Below are positions 30,124-47,100 of a stretch of DNA of 64,000 bases, piece after piece. Position numbers and translations under genes: made by a program. The DNA is taken from NCBI GenBank assembly GCA_002840245.1, contig PHAA01000008.1, positions 1 through 64,000 of the forward strand. The letters are read 5' to 3'. The DNA is from Firmicutes bacterium HGW-Firmicutes-15 (GTDB lineage: Bacteria > Bacillota > Syntrophomonadia > Syntrophomonadales > Syntrophomonadaceae). Below the pieces are notes generated by a model. It made no database searches. It was not told where the DNA came from and worked only from the letters and a program-made list of their open reading frames with translations. The stretch's first letter is position 1. Every line of letters starts with the position of its first letter.

Positions 30124-31113
30124 ATGAGAAAAATTGCCTTAGTTTTTATACTTGGAATTATCTTAACAATTGCATCTGTATCGGTGAGTCTTGCCAGTAC
30201 CGTGAATGTAATTGTGAACGGAAATCCTGTTGATTTCCCAGATGTAGAACCTTATGTTAACGAAGAAAGCAGGACGATGGTACCAGTTCGTTTTATAAGT
30301 GAGCAACTTGGTGCTGATGTTAGTTGGGATCAGCTTAATCAAACTGTCAATGTTTCCTATAATCAAAAAAGGATATCCATTCCAATCGACAGTAAGTTTG
30401 CAGATGTTGATGGTAACGAAATTAAGTTGGATACAAATGCTGTAATTAATAATAACCGCACCATGGTTCCGTTAAGATTCGTTAGCGAAGCCTTGGGGGC
30501 TAGAGTATTATGGAGTAGTGCTGCTCCCGTAGTACGCATTAGTAACAGCAACTATGATTTAAGCACAACCCAGAGCCGGCATAATAAATACAAGTTACCT
30601 CCTATAATAACGATTGATTCTAAAAAACATTATACTGCTATGATTAATACCAACCGCGGCAACTTTAGAATTGAATTATTTGCTTCCCAGGCTCCGACCA
30701 CGGTAAATAATTTTGTCTTTTTAGCCCGGGATGGATATTTTGATGGAATCAGTTTTCATCGAATTATAAAAGATTTTATGATCCAAACAGGCGATCCATT
30801 AGGGAGCGGTAGAGGTGGTCCTGGTTATACTTTTGCTGATGAATTACCGCCAGTAAAAGCATATGCACCTGGAATTGTTGCTATGGCTAACAGTGGGCCT
30901 AATACTAACGGTAGTCAGTTTTTTATCTGTAATGGTAGTGGGGCGAGTCAATTAAATAGCCAAGCAAACTATACCGTGTTTGGTCAGGTAATTGATGGAA
31001 TGGATGTTATTTTAAAAATATCTGATACTCCTTTAGAAAATAATCTGTCCGGGGAAATTAGCAAGCCAATGGAAGATGTTTTCATCCAGAAGGTTACTAT
31101 TGAAGAGAATTAA
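30124..31113 (+). CDS. Secreted stalk-domain cyclophilin (peptidyl-prolyl isomerase)
   Basis: A signal peptide (IALVFILGIILTIASVSVSLAS) is followed by a stalk domain (about 25-130; TMVPVRFISEQLGADVSWD and TMVPLRFVSEALGARVLWS) and a cyclophilin domain (about 165-325). The isomerase motifs FHRIIKDFMIQTGDP, GGPGYTFADE, AMANSGPNTNGSQFFI are intact, including the catalytic Arg of FHR. It should speed proline isomerisation in exported proteins outside the membrane. The stalk plus cyclophilin fusion is less common than the lipoprotein PrsA type foldases of Firmicutes. A terminator follows. Confidence 0.93.
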   Translation: MRKIALVFILGIILTIASVSVSLASTVNVIVNGNPVDFPDVEPYVNEESRTMVPVRFISEQLGADVSWDQLNQTVNVSYNQKRISIPIDSKFADVDGNEIKLDTNAVINNNRTMVPLRFVSEALGARVLWSSAAPVVRISNSNYDLSTTQSRHNKYKLPPIITIDSKKHYTAMINTNRGNFRIELFASQAPTTVNNFVFLARDGYFDGISFHRIIKDFMIQTGDPLGSGRGGPGYTFADELPPVKAYAPGIVAMANSGPNTNGSQFFICNGSGASQLNSQANYTVFGQVIDGMDVILKISDTPLENNLSGEISKPMEDVFIQKVTIEEN

Positions 31114-31200
31114 ATATTTGGATGTGGTTTTAATCCACTCGAATATTGTGTTTAATTGAATTTGCATAATTCAAGACTCTGGTGAAAATGAGCAATTCTT

Positions 31201-31241
31201 AAGCCCCTCCTAGATGTCAAATCTAACGGATGGGCTTTTTT
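31201..31241 (+). terminator. Terminator of the cyclophilin gene
   Basis: AAGCCCCTCC (31201-31210) pairs with GGATGGGCTT (31228-31237) with one mismatch; the inner TAGAT/ATCTA extends the stem. Six T follow. Confidence 0.8.
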
Positions 31242-31299
31242 GTCAGTATGACTGGCTAACTTTAGTTAAACAATAGAATAAACGAAAGGAGTTGCAATT

Positions 31300-31425
31300 A
31301 TGATGAAACCCAGTACTATGAAATGTTTATGGTTTTATGGATGTATCTTACTTGTTGCAGCTTGGAAAATGGGAAAAGTTCATGAGCAAATGGTCGGGTC
31401 ATCAAAGGATTGTTGTAGAAGATAA
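31300..31425 (+). CDS. Small single-helix membrane protein
   Basis: AAAGGAG lies eight bases before ATG 31300 (a second ATG follows at 31303). The 41 codons give MMKPSTMKCLWFYGCILLVA then AWKMGKVHEQMVGS and end SKDCCRR. One hydrophobic helix with a basic, Cys-rich tail suggests a small membrane protein. A terminator-like hairpin lies just after the stop. The good ribosome-binding site is the main support; no family is known. Confidence 0.5.
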   Translation: MMKPSTMKCLWFYGCILLVAAWKMGKVHEQMVGSSKDCCRR

Positions 31426-31430
31426 AAAAA

Positions 31431-31456
31431 GAAACGCCGCAAATTTGCGGCGTTTC
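31431..31456 (-). terminator. Terminator of the 3D-domain protein gene
   Basis: Perfect palindrome GAAACGCCGCAAA/TTTGCGGCGTTTC; on the minus strand it is followed by seven T. It lies nine bases from the minus-strand stop and also six bases from the plus-strand small gene. Confidence 0.88.
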
Positions 31457-31465
31457 CCTCACTAC

Positions 31466-32194
31466 CTACAGAATTGTAACCTTTACGGTTTTAATTCCCC
31501 AACTCAATCCTTGCTGATGACTGTCAAAGAAGAGGTCGATTCTATTGCCCTTGATGGCGTTACCCTGATCGGCAGCTATGGCTTCTCCATAACCTTCAAC
31601 ATAGAGCCTAGTTCCCATAGGAATAACCTTTGGATCTACGGCAACGATTCCTCTCCTCAAGGGAAGCCCAATATATGATGGCTGCCCATAGTATGGTTTA
31701 TTGCACTCATAACAACCGTCATAACCGGTTGCTACCATTGTTATTACCCGTTTTCCCTGATAGTCACTAGAACTACCTCTAGATACTGTTGGGGCGGGTT
31801 TCGATACTGGCTTTGTGACTGACGCTGAAGTTGGCAATGAAGCCGGCTCTGCAACTGCCGTTGATTCTGGTGTTATAGCTGGTGTCGAAGAAGTGACAGT
31901 TGATAAACCTAGGGCTTGTCTGATTCTAAGTCCAACTATACCATCAGCAACAAGGTTAGCTTTTATTTGGAAACTAACAACCGACTGGTATGATTCGGAA
32001 TTCAAAATACCATCCACTGCGCCGCACCAGTACCCCTGGGTATTCAAGGTTTCCTGCAATTGTACGGCTTCAGTGCTCCTTGAGCCCTCAGAAGGGTTAG
32101 AGGCTGCCATAGCAGCATCATTTCTAGCCAAGAACAGACCCGTAAACAAGAATAAAAATATGAAAACTGGAATTATAATCTTTTTACTTAACAT
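31466..32194 (-). CDS. Secreted peptidoglycan-binding and 3D-domain cell-wall protein
   Basis: The 242-residue product has a signal peptide (IIIPVFIFLFLFTGLFLARN, cut near MAAS), a PG_binding_1 module (about 40-95; LQETLNTQGYWCGAVDGILN, VSFQIKANLVADGIVG), a Pro/Thr/Ser linker, and a C-terminal 3D domain (VITMVATGYDG...IVAVDPKVIPMGTRLYVEGYGEAIAADQG...RIDLFFDS), whose three Asp residues are present. 3D domains of the YuiC/Sps type are lytic transglycosylases that act on the wall in sporulation or germination. GAGGAG lies before the ATG. Confidence 0.92.
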   Translation of the reverse strand: MLSKKIIIPVFIFLFLFTGLFLARNDAAMAASNPSEGSRSTEAVQLQETLNTQGYWCGAVDGILNSESYQSVVSFQIKANLVADGIVGLRIRQALGLSTVTSSTPAITPESTAVAEPASLPTSASVTKPVSKPAPTVSRGSSSDYQGKRVITMVATGYDGCYECNKPYYGQPSYIGLPLRRGIVAVDPKVIPMGTRLYVEGYGEAIAADQGNAIKGNRIDLFFDSHQQGLSWGIKTVKVTIL

Positions 32195-39418: not shown

Positions 39419-40924
39419 TTATCTTGAAACGGGTATATCTAATGTAGGTAAGCTAATAATAATTTTTGTGCCTTTGTTTTTAGTGCTTTCAACATTGATG
39501 TTACCCTGGTGTTGTTCTATAATCCACTTAGCAATTGAGAGTCCGAGGCCGGCACCTCCGCTTTCTCGGGTTCTGGACTTATCAGATTTATAGAAACGAT
39601 TGAAGATATAAGGCAAATCTTCTTCAGATATTCCTATTCCGGTATCTTCAATAATCATTAAAGCTTTATTAACTCTAAGGCTGCTATTTATGGTTATTGA
39701 GCCGCCAGCCGGGGTATATTTTATGCTGTTATCTACAAATATTCTTAAGGCTTGCTTGATTAACCCCCTGTCCCCATTAACAACAATTATTTCATTTGTC
39801 GCACTGCTAATAATGTGAATAGAATCAATTAGACCGGTTTCTTTTATTACTTCATCAATGAGTTCATTCAATGCGAATGGGCTTGCTTCCAGTCTGTGGC
39901 TTTTCTTATCGGCACTCGCCAGGAATAGAAGCTTTTCTACCAAATCCTTCATATAATTAGATTCACTTATTATAGCATCAATGGATTCTAGTAGCACTTC
40001 TTTATCTTCTTTGCCCCATCGCTTAAGAAGGTTTGCATAACCCTGGATTACGGCTATAGGGGTTCTGAGCTCGTGGGAGGCATCGGAAACAAAAATATTT
40101 TGCTTCTCAAAGGATGTTTGGATGCGATCTAGCATATCATTGAAGGTTAGAGCCAGCTCCTTTAGTTCATCATGAGAATCTACCAGATCCAAACGGGTAT
40201 TTAGATTCCCTACAGCAATAGACCTGGCTGTCCGGGTCATATTATCAATGGGTTTTAACATTTTACGACTGGCTCTGGAGCCTATTATAATAGTTAATAT
40301 AATGGCTAAAAAAAAGCTTATGCTAATAGCTGTTATTAAGCTTGCTAGATAGACTTTTTCATTAGATAAATATTTGGAGACTTCAATTTTGCGAGTGCCA
40401 TTAGTTGTTTTAACCGGGGTTTCGAAATGTAAATACTCCAAATTCTGATCCAGGGAGCTGTTAGGAGACAGCTTGGTTCGGTAGGTTAAGTTTTCTTTTT
40501 GACTGGCCTGGGCAGTGCTATAAATGGTATTGCTTTCTTCATCGAATAGGGTAACAGAAATAACTTCAATATCAGCGTAGTTTTTAATCTGTTCTTTGGG
40601 GATATCAGAACTTTCGCTGATTAAATTCATTATAACCAGACTATTCTTTTCCAGTGATTGATTAGATTCGTATAGAAGGAAAAAACCAAAGACGCCAGTG
40701 AGTAAGGTACCCAATATCAGAAGTATTTTTGAAAAAAGCAGGGTATAAGTGCTGGTAGTTTTAAAAGTAATAGAGAAGCGCAGGCGTTTGTTTATTGCCT
40801 TAATGACTTCACTAAATATGCGGGGCAAAAGATTCAAGGTGAGTTTTAGAATAGCCGAAATTATTATTAAAATACTTTTTACAATGTATTTTAATATCTT
40901 AGCGAAACCTCCTGCTTTACTCAT
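39419..40924 (-). CDS. Sensor histidine kinase (HAMP-HisKA-HATPase)
   Basis: The 501-residue kinase has two membrane helices (about 60-82 and 195-218), an outside sensor of about 110 residues, a HAMP domain, HisKA with phospho-His in SDASHELRTPIAVIQGY, and HATPase_c with the N box (DNSIKYTP), G1 (EDTGIGI) and G2 (GGAGLGLSIAKW). Its first codons overlap the end of the response regulator gene (ATGAGTAA region), so they are co-translated. The signal is unknown. The adjacent UBA-like gene could be in the same unit. Confidence 0.94.
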   Translation of the reverse strand: MSKAGGFAKILKYIVKSILIIISAILKLTLNLLPRIFSEVIKAINKRLRFSITFKTTSTYTLLFSKILLILGTLLTGVFGFFLLYESNQSLEKNSLVIMNLISESSDIPKEQIKNYADIEVISVTLFDEESNTIYSTAQASQKENLTYRTKLSPNSSLDQNLEYLHFETPVKTTNGTRKIEVSKYLSNEKVYLASLITAISISFFLAIILTIIIGSRASRKMLKPIDNMTRTARSIAVGNLNTRLDLVDSHDELKELALTFNDMLDRIQTSFEKQNIFVSDASHELRTPIAVIQGYANLLKRWGKEDKEVLLESIDAIISESNYMKDLVEKLLFLASADKKSHRLEASPFALNELIDEVIKETGLIDSIHIISSATNEIIVVNGDRGLIKQALRIFVDNSIKYTPAGGSITINSSLRVNKALMIIEDTGIGISEEDLPYIFNRFYKSDKSRTRESGGAGLGLSIAKWIIEQHQGNINVESTKNKGTKIIISLPTLDIPVSR

Positions 40925-41600
40925 GTTTTAATACATAACCCACCCCGCGTACAGTGTGAATGAGTTTTATGTGATACTTATCATCAATTTTGCTTCGCAA
41001 ATATCTTATGTAAACATCTACTGCATTTGTGTCGCCATAGTAGGCATAGCCCCAGACATTTTGCAGGATTTTTTCTCTGCTAAGAACTAAATGTTCATTT
41101 TCTGCCAGATATTTAAGCAAATCGTATTCCTTTTTGGTAAGGTCAACGGATTCATTATTATAAAGAACGGAGTGTTTGCTAAGGTCTATTATTAAGGGGC
41201 CTAAAACAATTGTTTTAGCTTCCTCAGAATGGATTTTCTTCCGTTTCAGCGATACCCGTATCCTGGCCAATAGTTCTTCAATGGCAAAGGGCTTGGTCAT
41301 ATAATCATCGGCACCGATGTCAAGCCCCATTACTATGTCGGTAACGTCATCTTTGGCAGTTAGCATGATTACCGGCGTCTCCGAAGACTGTCGAAGACGC
41401 CTTAACACTTCCATGCCATTTAGAGAAGGCAACATCACGTCGAGTATCACCAGGTCAAACATGCCACTCACAGCTCTTTCCAGTCCTTCGCGGCCATCAT
41501 GTGCTTGTTCAACCCAATACCCTTCATGGGTAAGCTCCAAATTCAAAAATCGTGCGATCTTTACTTCATCTTCAATGATTAATATTTTCTCAGCAACCAT
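40917..41600 (-). CDS. OmpR-type response regulator
   Basis: The 227-residue regulator has a receiver domain with Asp in LVILDVMLPSLNG, the switch residues (MLTAKD, TKPFAIEELLARI) and a winged-helix effector domain (VDLTKKEYDLLKYLAENEH, NAVDVYIRYLRSKID, IHTVRGVGYVLK). It pairs with the kinase at 39419-40924, whose start overlaps its stop by eight bases. It lies 12 bases downstream of the UBA/DUF4342 gene. Confidence 0.95.
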   Translation of the reverse strand: MVAEKILIIEDEVKIARFLNLELTHEGYWVEQAHDGREGLERAVSGMFDLVILDVMLPSLNGMEVLRRLRQSSETPVIMLTAKDDVTDIVMGLDIGADDYMTKPFAIEELLARIRVSLKRKKIHSEEAKTIVLGPLIIDLSKHSVLYNNESVDLTKKEYDLLKYLAENEHLVLSREKILQNVWGYAYYGDTNAVDVYIRYLRSKIDDKYHIKLIHTVRGVGYVLKHE

Positions 41601-41612
41601 ATAAACACAATC

Positions 41613-42077
41613 CTATTTTTTATTTATGGCATCCACCACTTGCTCGCTGACCTTAGATGCAGCAGATGATATATTATCCAATGTCTGGTTAATTTTCATA
41701 TTTTCACAACCAGGTTTTTCCAAACGAATTTTGTGGTTAGTAAATATTGCAGCTAATAGGCCTATGACGGTTAATGGAGGCATTATTATAGTTGCTAATA
41801 TTACAACAGTTAGAGGTAAATCGATAATGGTGTTACCATTTTTACTAATTATAAACTTGGTTATATTGCAGGTCTTAACGATCTTTTTGACTGTCGCCCA
41901 AAAACCGGACTTGCAGCAGGTTTCATTTTGGGGCGCTTTTATTTTATCCTGTTTTTCCAGATAAATTAGCGCTTCCAGAACATCATTATTGCATTTTTCC
42001 AGGGCTTCCTTGGCCTCCTCATAACTAATATTGGCTCTCTCTCTTAGGATTTCTATCATTTCTAAACTAACAGCCAT
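41613..42077 (-). CDS. UBA-like/DUF4342 protein with membrane segment
   Basis: ATG 42077 lies seven bases after GGAGG and is preferred to upstream in-frame starts. The 154-residue product has an N-terminal UBA-like three-helix domain of the elongation-factor-Ts type (EILRERANISYEEAKEALEKCNNDVLEALIYLEK) and a DUF4342-like part with a hydrophobic double segment (IDLPLTVVILATIIMPPLTVIGLLAAIF). DUF4342 proteins often lie beside two-component systems; the gene here directly precedes a regulator and kinase. Exact function is unknown. Confidence 0.8.
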   Translation of the reverse strand: MAVSLEMIEILRERANISYEEAKEALEKCNNDVLEALIYLEKQDKIKAPQNETCCKSGFWATVKKIVKTCNITKFIISKNGNTIIDLPLTVVILATIIMPPLTVIGLLAAIFTNHKIRLEKPGCENMKINQTLDNISSAASKVSEQVVDAINKK

Positions 42078-42164
42078 GTTCATTCCTCCTATATATTTTT
42101 GTAACATCGTTAGTATAGAACCAATGAATTAGAGGATTCTTAGACAAAGATTAGAATTAGATTA

Positions 42165-42189
42165 AAAAACGAGTGGGTCTAAACCCCAC
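42165..42189 (-). terminator. Terminator of the HesB-like selenoprotein gene
   Basis: On the minus strand CGGGTGGG and CCCACTCG pair with one G-U around a small loop (about 42191-42171) and are followed by six T (42170-42165). It lies about 35 bases after the stop at 42228. Confidence 0.85.
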
Positions 42190-42227
42190 CCGTTCGTCAT
42201 AAATTATAGCCTATAACATATGCAATT

Positions 42228-42557
42228 TTAGCCGCAGGAGGAACAAGAAGAGCATCCACCGGTGTCGGCAGCTTCTTTCTCGGGAAGAATCTTAAAGTAG
42301 GTCTGTCCCTCTTGTTGGAAAGAACTGATTGTGAACCCTTTGCTCATTTCCAAGAGATTATCTTCTACTACAAAATGGAGGCCGTCATGTTCTTCAACCT
42401 TATCATTTTTAACTGGTTCATCCAGAACCAGATTATAAGACATGCCTCCTCAGCCAACACTCGCATTAATTCGTAAATACATGGTGTCCAGCTTTCTTTC
42501 CTTCAAGATTTCTTTTATATCCTGAACGGCTTCGGTTGATATTCTTACCATTTCCAT
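42228..42557 (-). CDS. HesB/IscA-like selenoprotein (in-frame UGA read as selenocysteine)
   Basis: From ATG 42557 the minus strand reads MEMVRISTEAVQDIKEILKE, then RKLDTMYLRINASVG, then TGA (42452-42450), then GGMSYNLVLDEPVKND... to the real stop at 42228, giving 109 residues. The TGA stands exactly where IscA/HesB proteins have the first ligand Cys (GGC-x-GxSY), and the frame stays intact on both sides, so the codon is read as selenocysteine rather than being a mutation. HesB-like selenoproteins are known. The C-terminus CSSCSSCG gives the other metal ligands. A bacterial SECIS-like hairpin lies 18 bases past the TGA. An iron-sulfur carrier or redox role is likely. Confidence 0.88.
42413..42431 (-). 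promoter_or_regulatory. Candidate bacterial SECIS hairpin
   Basis: On the minus strand CTGGTTC (42431-42425) and GAACCAG (42419-42413) form a perfect seven-base stem with a five-base loop TGGAT. It begins 18 bases after the TGA and has G in the second loop position. Both features match what is known of bacterial SECIS elements bound by SelB. It lies within the coding sequence, as expected. Confidence 0.75.
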
Positions 42558-42729
42558 ATTCACACACCCTTTTAAAAATATTTGGACTACTATTGGCAAT
42601 TAATTGTTCTTAGTATACCCAGAAAAAATTCTTGTCAATTACCCCCTAAGGGTATTTTAGATCAGTCTTTGTTATTTGACAAGGGGATATTGAATTTTAT
42701 CATTAACAGAAACAATTTTAAATGTAATT

Positions 42730-43725
42730 TCACTGCAGTGCAAAGCAAAAACCCTTGTTATGAAACAATTCAAGGCAGACTGCTACCACATTCCGGTCAT
42801 AAAGTATACCGGCATTTGACGATATTTCTTCCAATGCTGCCTCAATGCCCAACGCTGGACGATAAGGACGATGTGAAGAAATAGCTTCAACTACATCCGC
42901 CACGGTAATAATGCGAGCTTCCAGCAAAATATCGCTGCCTTTCAGACCGCCAGGATAACCGCTGCCATCGCATTTTTCATGGTGTTGTTGGATAATGCGC
43001 GCAATGGGAGAATCGAAGTCAATGGACTTCAGCATTTCATAGGCTATCTGCGGATGAGCTTTTATTATTGTGAATTCTACCGGATCAAGTGTGCCCGGTT
43101 TACTCAAGTACTCTGCTGGAATTGATATTTTGCCGATATCATGGAGTATAGAGGCTATATAAATGCCGGTTTTGTCCTTCTCATTTAGATTCATCTCGTC
43201 TGCTATAGCACAGGCCAACTGGCAGACTTTTTTCTGATGGCCTGAGGTATAGGGATCGCGCTTTTCGACCATTAGGGATAAACTTTCCACCGTTTGCAAC
43301 AGAACCTGCTGCAGTTTAATTTCGGCTTTACGGCGAGCTATAATGTGCTCCCACTCTCTGAGCGCACGTACTACAAAATCCGGCATATTAGCAAAGGTCT
43401 CCGGGGACTTTACTATGTAATCCAACGCTCCAGCTTTCATGGCTCCGACTGCCAATTCCTCATTACCATGACTGGTGATAAGAACCAGCGGAAATAGAGA
43501 GTTCTCTCGGTTAGAAGGGAGCAATTCTATGCCTTTACCATCGGGTAGCAGCCAATCGCACAATACTATATCAGGAATGTTGTTGTGCAGGTAATAGCGG
43601 GATGCAGCTAGACTAGACCTGATAGACAGATTAAAACTAGCCCTATGAGCGTCAAAGGCACGTTGTATCAACTCTATATGAGCTTCATCATCATCGACAA
43701 TTAATACGTTAAATGACTTCTCTAT
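42730..43725 (-). CDS. Response regulator with HD-GYP cyclic-di-GMP phosphodiesterase domain
   Basis: The receiver needs the segment (M)EKSFNVLIVDDDEAHIEL, which begins at ATA 43725, seven bases after AGGAGGG. An in-frame TAG lies just before, and no ATG, GTG or TTG occurs in frame before the acidic DDD, so AUA is probably the start (332 codons incl. stop). Residues 1-130 are the receiver (phospho-Asp in IVLCDWLLPDGKG), about 150-330 the HD-GYP domain (LHDIGKISIP, HPQIAYEML, HHEKCDGSGYPGGLKG). It should lower cyclic di-GMP when phosphorylated. It is third in the operon with the PAS kinase and small receiver. Confidence 0.88.
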   Translation of the reverse strand: MEKSFNVLIVDDDEAHIELIQRAFDAHRASFNLSIRSSLAASRYYLHNNIPDIVLCDWLLPDGKGIELLPSNRENSLFPLVLITSHGNEELAVGAMKAGALDYIVKSPETFANMPDFVVRALREWEHIIARRKAEIKLQQVLLQTVESLSLMVEKRDPYTSGHQKKVCQLACAIADEMNLNEKDKTGIYIASILHDIGKISIPAEYLSKPGTLDPVEFTIIKAHPQIAYEMLKSIDFDSPIARIIQQHHEKCDGSGYPGGLKGSDILLEARIITVADVVEAISSHRPYRPALGIEAALEEISSNAGILYDRNVVAVCLELFHNKGFCFALQ

Positions 43726-43752
43726 GTTCTGTCCCTCCTAGATGCAAATATA

Positions 43753-44193
43753 TTAATAAGGTTTGGCATTCCATCCCAACCAGTACATGCCTAATTCGTC
43801 CATTAGTGTGGAAAATTTCGTGAAGTCAATAGGTTTAACCAGGAAACTATTGACATGATTGCGATAGGCAGCGCAAATATCATTTTCCGATTCTGATGAT
43901 GTAAGCACAACCGTTGGGATAACCTTTAAATGTTCCGAATTTTTGATTTCACCTAGAACAGTCAAACCATCCATCTTGGGTAGACGTAGATCCAATAATA
44001 TCAAATTAGGCAAAGGATTATCCAGGGCTCGGGTGTATTTGCCCCGACGAAATAAATAATCTAGAGCATCTTCACCATCAGAGCAATGTATAATGCGGTT
44101 AGCAATGCGTTGAGCTTGAAAGTTGCGTTTGACCATTTCGGCATGGTCCTCATTATCTTCTACCAGCAGAATTATCAGAGCTTCTCCGTTCAT
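43753..44193 (-). CDS. Single-domain response regulator (Rcp1/CheY-like)
   Basis: The 146-residue protein is one receiver domain: ILLVEDNEDHAEMVKRNF, phospho-Asp in LILLDLRLPKMDGL, VVLTSSE and the Lys of FLVKPIDF. The acidic pocket, the 'NPLPNLILLDL' segment and the insertion before it are like Rcp1, the partner of phytochrome-like kinases. Its start overlaps the kinase stop by four bases (ATGA), so the two are translationally coupled. It probably passes phosphate between the kinase and the receiver-HD-GYP protein. Confidence 0.94.
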   Translation of the reverse strand: MNGEALIILLVEDNEDHAEMVKRNFQAQRIANRIIHCSDGEDALDYLFRRGKYTRALDNPLPNLILLDLRLPKMDGLTVLGEIKNSEHLKVIPTVVLTSSESENDICAAYRNHVNSFLVKPIDFTKFSTLMDELGMYWLGWNAKPY

Positions 44194-47100
44194 AAATACA
44201 CCGTCCTTTCAATTGAATTAGTAGTTTGGGGTAGGGAAAAATAAAAAGTTGAGCCCATTCCTGGACCCGCAGATTCTACCCATAGCCGACCCTGGTGGTA
44301 TTCAATAATCCTCTTTACCAGTGACAAACCGATACCAGTTCCCTCACAGTTAGGGTCGAGCTTGTTAAACAGGCCGAAAATACTGTCGTGATAACGAGCT
44401 TCTATGCCAATTCCATTGTCACGTACGAAGAAAGTCCATTCGCCGGGAGTGTCTAGAGAACCAATTTCAATCTGCGGATGGGCCTGATTCCCCATGAATT
44501 TAACCGCATTTTCTACCAGGTTTTGCAATACTTCACGAATTCGAGCATGGTCTGCCAGAACCTCAGGCATTTCAGAGTCAATGATTAGCTTGACTCCACG
44601 CTCATTTAGTCTGCCAGTGAGCAGTTCATCTACTTCTATAGCGAGCTTGCTCATAGAGAAGCAACTGAAGGTATTAAGCAAACGGCCGATGCGTGACAGC
44701 TCAAGTAAATCATGCAGTAAATCATCCATTTTTCCCGCAGCGTTTATAATTCGCTGTAGATCATTTTCCAAACGGGAATGATTACCTTGTTTTAGATCAT
44801 CCAGCAGTAATCCGGCAAAACCCTTGATGGTGATAAGAGGGCTGCGCAGGTCGTGAGATACAGTGTAGGTGAATCGTTCCATCTCAGCGTTTTTGGCCTC
44901 CAATTCCTTTAGTTGCTCGCTTATAATTTGTTCAGTCTTTTTGCGATCACTAATGTCAGAATACATAACATAAAAACCGTAACTGGTAATAGGCACTGAA
45001 TTAATCATAACATTGAACATGCTGCCGTTTTTATGCTTGCGAACGGTTTCTTTTTGGATTAACTCTCCATTAAAAACAAAACGTTGATTTGCTTTAAATT
45101 CCTCAAGGTACCCTGAGGGGACTATCAATTCATCCAGTCGCTTGTGCTGGCATTCTTCGAGCTTGTAACCAAATAGATTGAAAAACTGAGGGTTGACGTT
45201 AATAATCTCTTGCTCCAGGTTGCATAAGACAACAGCATCGTGTGAATTAAAAAAAAGTGCCTGTAGATTTTGCCTTTGTTGTAATAATTCAGCCTCAGCC
45301 TGCTGACGCTCGCTCAAATCGCGAATAGCTGCGGCTCTGATTCTACGTCCTTTATATTCAAACATGCGTCCCTGTATTTCTACAGGCAGACGCGATCCGT
45401 CCCTGCGCATTGCAATTCCCTCGTAGGGGAGTTCATAACCAGTAGCTATATGACTTTCAACTATTGCGCGTGATTCAGGAACTGCTAAGTCAATGGCATG
45501 CATACCTATCATTTTCTGGTGATCATAGCCAAACATCTCCGCCGCTTTCTGGTTAACCTCGATACATATTCCATTTTCAGTGAGAATAATGCCTTCAAAG
45601 CTCGCATCGGATAAGGCTTTGAAACGTGCTTCCCCAACTCTCAGCGATTCTTCCACCTGCTTTTGCCAGGTCATATCCCATAAAGAAATAATGGTGCGTT
45701 GATCCGGCAGCTCAATGCCATGAAATTCTATATCCCGTACCTGTCCGTCTTTACAGTGTACCCGGGCATTTCCCCTAGCTCTTTGCTTAAGCCGAAGCTG
45801 CTGGTACCAATCTTCCATCAAAGCATTACGTGAGTTTACTTTGGGGTAAGCCTTTTGCAGCCAAACTTCCATGGTAGGAATGTCTTCAAGAGTATAGCCA
45901 GTTATTTCAGTAACTCGAGAATTCAGAAAGACAAAACGATTACAATTATCAACAATAGCGGTTCCTGTGGGTGAATGCTCCAGGGTCATCCTTAATGATT
46001 CACTCTGGTTAATAAGTTCGTTTTCCATTTGCTTGCGGTAGGTAATATCGCGAATTGATTCGATAGCTCCGGTGATTTCTCCATTAGTATTATAAAGGGG
46101 AGTAGCCATTCCCCACAGATATGCTCCTTCATTACCGAAGTTGGGAACAAATAGTTCTACGGTTAGCTTATTGTCGATATGTGTTACATACGGGTATTGA
46201 TGCTTGGTAACCTCATCTGCTTTCATAACCATGTCGATTAAAATAGGCCGACGCTCTCCATAAAAGGGGAGAGCGTATTCATAATTGCTCTTCCCCAACA
46301 TTTCTGTTGCAGATAGGCCGGTCATTTTTTCCATAGCATGATTCCAGGCTAGAACCTGTCCATGAGAATCGATGACTAGGGTAGCATCAGGCAAGAAATC
46401 AATGATATTGTTCAGCAGCATTTTTGATTCCTGCAAGGCTTCTTGGCCATGTTTAAGCTCGGTGATGTCAATGGCTGAAGCCATAACTGCCGGCTCTCCA
46501 TCATAAACAATTCGACTGCCGGTTAGATAAATCCAAACTGAATCAGTATTTTTGCTCAGTAGTTTAAGCTCATAGGTAGTAGTCACATCCGTACCTTTTT
46601 GTCGGCTTAGACCTCTTTCACGGGCTATTTTACGATATTCCGGGTGTACCACATCCCAGAAATTCATCTTGAGAAGCTCTTCTTCACTGTAAGCAGTAAG
46701 TCTCATTAGAGCCGGATTGACATAGACGAAACGATCGCCTTTTATAATGTATACAATGGCGGTGCTGTCTTCGGCCAGGGTGCGAAACTTTTGTTCGCTT
46801 GCTTCTAATGCTTCCCGGATCATTTTTTGTTCAGTGATATCACGCCCTGCTCCCTGAATAGCAAGTGGATGTTTACCAGCAAATATTAACCTTGTATGCA
46901 GTTCGATGCATAGCTTTTTTCCTTGGCGGTCGAAGACTTCTATATCATAGGTGGTGATGTCAATTCCCTTTAATTTTTCAGCAATTTTGGACTGGACAAG
47001 ATTCCGATATTCCGGAAGCACTATGTCAATAAATGTCATGCCTAGAATTTCTTCAGGACGATAACCTAAATGAAACAGACCGTATTGGTTGAGACTTAAA

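Follow-up and report, generated by a model that had tools for sequence, protein, structure and literature searches.

HesB-like selenoproteins were catalogued already in 2006, in a list that holds no HesB-like entry for Syntrophomonas wolfei (PMC1794560), and a 2026 review gives their motif as UxGP (PMC13188914). The HesB-like selenoprotein MMJJ_08070 of Methanococcus maripaludis was found by mutagenesis and 75Se labelling, and its function is unclear (PMC11097638). MMJJ_08070 is of the same kind as the gene analyzed here but archaeal, and the two are likened by their descriptions. The archaeal SECIS is located in the UTR.

With the HesB-like selenoproteins modelled by TIGR01911 and NF038090 our gene shares the HesB/IscA domain, a predicted Sec at the first ligand Cys and a SECIS-like hairpin just downstream; its relatives, however, carry U-G-G-[MAVTIS] instead of UxGP, form a separate clade and score under both cut-offs. 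With the A-type carriers IscA, SufA and ErpA (PF01521, TIGR00049) it shares the predicted fold (Z 11.4–12.3 for IscA and SufA) and the ligand position. These proteins have a Cys and a CGCG tail, whereas the window protein would have Sec and has the tail GCSSCSSCG, and PF01521 does not reach it. A further protein with the A-type carrier fold is DsrR (2k4z), with Z 11.3 to the window protein. DsrR is not known to have the Fe–S cysteines, and in that respect it is closer to the Sec-less paralogs L101 and L102 described below. No paper describing the clade of the window gene was found in the open-access literature. The gene is thus a divergent and apparently new member of the HesB-like selenoproteins, a kind already known.

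The reading frame and its TGA codon

The window, that is, the whole stretch of 64,000 nucleotides that was analyzed, belongs to contig C25 of a 3.47-Mb assembly (G000) which is 99.7% complete. The features relevant for the following are:

42228–42557, minus strand: predicted HesB/IscA-like selenoprotein gene, complete, 109 aa with Sec36 (TGA) and TAA stop (frame reading; full-length homologs)
42450–42452, minus strand: in-frame TGA, in all probability read as Sec, matching the IscA Cys35 ligand position (homolog alignment; TGA kept in 26 of 54 family genomes)
42413–42431, minus strand: putative bSECIS hairpin, stem CTGGTTC/GAACCAG, loop TGGAT (RNA UGGAU), 18 nt past the TGA (scan, recoding test, covariation)
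42228–42443, minus strand: shortened 71-aa ORF from standard calling without recoding, start ATG 42443
42231–42257, minus strand: Cys-rich tail GCSSCSSCG, candidate extra metal ligands, C99/C101-like region (alignment, two Cys invariant; low pLDDT)
42167–42195, minus strand: intrinsic-terminator-like hairpin 3′ of the selenoprotein gene, before the DUF4342 gene (41613–42107)

The sequence-only reading had proposed that a single HesB-type frame is split by a TGA at the metal-ligand position, that this codon specifies selenocysteine and that automatic annotation would cut the gene short at ATG 42443. Coordinates and letters proved exact: the frame of 109 codons runs on the minus strand from ATG 42557 through one in-frame TGA (42452–42450) to the TAA at 42230–42228, and an ORF caller indeed returned only the 71 aa. 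With the TGA taken as a residue the translation is MEMVRISTEAVQDIKEILKERKLDTMYLRINASVG-U-GGMSYNLVLDEP...GGCSSCSSCG.

Cys homologs could be aligned at the TGA, as had been anticipated, and have a Cys there within the motif GCSG. The sequence relatives in the PDB (AQ_1857, IscA, HI1723, SufA) likewise place the ligand Cys of GC[GS]G in register with the TGA, which in IscA is Cys35; at this site the residue would ligate a metal. An AlphaFold model (pLDDT 86) predicts the IscA fold, with 1x0g IscA found by Foldseek (E 1.2e-6; VIA: Z 12.3, rmsd 2.0, 97 residues). The first member of the ligand triad C35/C99/C101 would be Sec, and the tail has a CxxCxxC pattern with two invariant Cys, in a part of the model with low pLDDT.

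The organism had been expected to carry selA, selB, selC and selD, and all four are present on contig C79. Three of them are clustered: selA (44276–45379, E 2e-147), selB (42306–44180, 372 bits at a cut-off of 242) and selC, the tRNA-Sec (42009–42103, 73 bits at a cut-off of 47), whose anticodon UCA is legible as TCA in the sequence. The selD gene lies at 30910–31833 (366 bits). We observed that this selD (G000:C79:30910-31833, L036) is itself a Sec gene with an in-frame TGA near its start. Within the family selA was found in 24 of the 26 genomes with the selenoprotein gene versus 24 of the 28 without it; the two exceptions with the gene, G004 and G298, in which selA was not found, are fragmented assemblies. 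Being nearly universal (48/54 genomes), selA discriminates little by its presence.

The hairpin downstream of the TGA

A perfect 7-bp hairpin with a G in the loop had been noticed 18 bases 3′ of the TGA, and CTGGTTC-TGGAT-GAACCAG stands at 42431–42413 exactly so; a purpose-made scan of the bSECIS type also finds this SECIS-like hairpin, which covaries among the relatives. Its presence exceeds what chance would give: comparable hairpins with at least 7 perfect pairs follow only 18 of the 2167 TGA trinucleotides of the window, and 0.8% of the synonymous recodings of the gene reach one. The fold energy is unexceptional, 6.5% of the synonymous recodings being equally stable; in most genes the comparison of fold energies with synonymous recodings was not decisive, and stem length together with covariation was. 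An Rfam scan of the locus gave chance matches only.

The stem is kept at equal distance in all examined Sec genes of the clade. Among 26 distinct Sec genes 94.5% of the cells are paired compared to 82.6% after shuffling, and six of the seven stem pairs show double changes (30 double-change cells versus 10.8 shuffled, 26 distinct sequences). The covariation score is 0.48 versus 0.25 for shuffled and at most 0.14 for slid alignments, a slide of 0 being best by far. The hairpin is absent from 15 Cys homologs when their Cys codon is aligned with the TGA (40/105 cells paired, none of the sequences with at least 6 of the 7 pairs). In one stem pair the partners are the second base of a codon for Val, Ala or Thr and the silent third base of Glu codon 12; the silent base fits its partner in 36 of the 36 distinct genes that have this Glu (GAA with T, GAG with C; Fisher p 2e-10, uncorrected for kinship). 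That a silent base tracks its partner is, as far as these alignments tell, not explained by protein conservation alone. Bacterial selenoprotein hairpins are expected to have a G early in the loop and to covary, and both are found here.

Taken together, the intact frame, the conserved TGA, the covarying hairpin, the sel genes, the Cys homologs and the IscA fold argue for a selenoprotein. The hairpin directly after the UGA would recruit SelB with Sec-tRNA(Sec), and the UGA would then be decoded as Sec36, giving the 109-aa protein. On this evidence decoding of the UGA as Sec36, as the sequence-only reading had it, appears almost certain, and that the gene encodes a selenoprotein of the HesB-like kind with a HesB/IscA (A-type carrier-like) fold is very probable.

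Other readings of the TGA have to be weighed against this. Automatic ORF calling yields nothing but a 71-aa fragment, as it would for a pseudogene or a sequencing error, with the TGA as a real or artefactual nonsense mutation; the identical TGA in independent genomes, the conserved frame on either side and the covarying hairpin make this explanation exceedingly improbable. Just as improbable is an altered genetic code or simple read-through that would place Trp or some other standard residue at the TGA. Translation with TGA=W would give an open frame of the same appearance, but TGA terminates 7 of the 31 open stretches of at least 250 aa in the window and thus serves as an ordinary stop; moreover homologs have Cys at the site, tRNA-Sec and SelB are present and the hairpin occurs in the TGA genes only. 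Finally, the in-frame ATG 42443 after the TGA could start a separate functional protein of 71 aa. This is very improbable, too: the Met is unconserved (A, V, T, I or S in relatives), so that many relatives are unable to start there, and a protein beginning at this ATG would, according to the model, lack the first strands of the fold.

A Sec-only clade within the Syntrophomonadaceae

Decoding as Sec36 being preferred, we turn to the distribution of the gene. The closest named match is from a Syntrophomonas sp. MAG (72% identity), and a single-protein scan of genome contigs gave just one close relative. A copy with one TGA (best copy) is present in 26 of 54 Syntrophomonadaceae genomes, and 28 of the 54 are without the gene. 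Wherever a copy was read the TGA has the identical position with the frame conserved on both sides, and homologs with an identity of only about 41% still retain it. The clade, inside which no Cys homologs were found, is Sec-only; its motif is GUGG-[MAVTIS]. In a tree of 63 rows and 111 alignment columns, rooted at the midpoint, the clade and three rows of Sec-less paralogs form a group of their own (support 100/99). Among the genomes sampled it is limited to its own GTDB family, Syntrophomonadaceae: outside the family the best score of the clade profile, at least 100 bits within it, does not exceed about 60 bits, and the genes read there encode either selenoproteins of the UGGP/USGP type or Cys proteins with GCSG.

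The best two NCBIfam matches of the window protein, NF038090 (IscA_HesB_Se, 57.4 bits) and TIGR01911 (HesB_rel_seleno, 52.7 bits), remain below the cut-offs of 85 and 66.35 bits, respectively, and none of 249 sampled genomes of the phylum passes the cut-off of NF038090. The TIGR01911 cut-off is likewise missed by further Se-HesB proteins whose genes have a SECIS hairpin, so it is narrower than the kind. At the gathering score PF01521 (Fe-S_biosyn) gives no match. This is a divergent, family-specific Sec-only branch of the HesB-like selenoproteins that is missed by curated models and truncated by gene callers.

The Sec-less paralogs of the clade, L101 and L102/L015 (G296, G010), lack both Sec and Cys at this position (GFGDIPEGF, IDLDGDKIGRGF); they group at 100/99, and their host genomes also retain a Sec copy. 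In the same genus there is in addition a second HesB-like TGA gene with a shortened tail (L016, L017 and L018 in G002, G004 and G005; G001:C112:2811-3062), which is of the UGGP type in the three read (L016, L017, L018) and was not found in the genome of the window. L017 also has a further GUGGPR motif and hairpin.

Possible function and genomic surroundings

Sec36 would replace the first cluster-ligating Cys of the A-type carriers and, together with the tail GCSSCSSCG, may bind Fe, an Fe–S cluster or a different soft metal; the cell also has a scaffold of the NifU/IscU type (NifU_N is found in the genome). We lean slightly towards such an Fe–S or metal-carrier function. The fold and the ligand position, which match those of A-type Fe–S carriers, speak against a selenoprotein that is no Fe–S carrier and in which Sec36 serves as a redox-active selenol or binds persulfide or a soft metal other than iron. 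Yet the classical CGCG tail is replaced by GCSSCSSCG, there are no isc/suf neighbours, and the absence of the gene from 28 of the 54 family genomes argues that it is not essential for Fe–S assembly; this alternative is therefore a serious one, if somewhat improbable.

Conserved neighbours were sought in nine relatives and are shared only between close ones, with no isc, suf or nif genes among them, so an Fe–S role is without support from genomic context. The gene stands alone, followed by the terminator-like hairpin and with neighbours that vary among relatives. By profile and protein searches it is the sole HesB/IscA-fold gene found in its genome. PF01521 proteins were not found there; Cys proteins of this family were found in none of the 54 family genomes, the four genomes matched carrying UGA copies only. 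Since PF01521 misses the window protein too, the absence of carriers is somewhat weak. The selenoprotein could have replaced all Cys A-type carriers in the lineage and become a Sec-only Fe–S (or metal) carrier serving a specialised target of its own, L101 and L102 being a further branching into cluster-free roles; we consider this scenario unlikely. Since the searches of the family genomes turned up no Cys A-type carrier, the question why a cluster-ligand position employs selenium can be asked cleanly in this group.

The downstream gene (41613–42107) combines a DUF4342 domain with an N-terminal part that looks UBA-like and precedes a two-component system (39419–41600). About 85 nt upstream of the selenoprotein gene, at 42640–42654, there is a short inverted repeat, TACCCCCTAAGGGTA, possibly an operator or a terminator.
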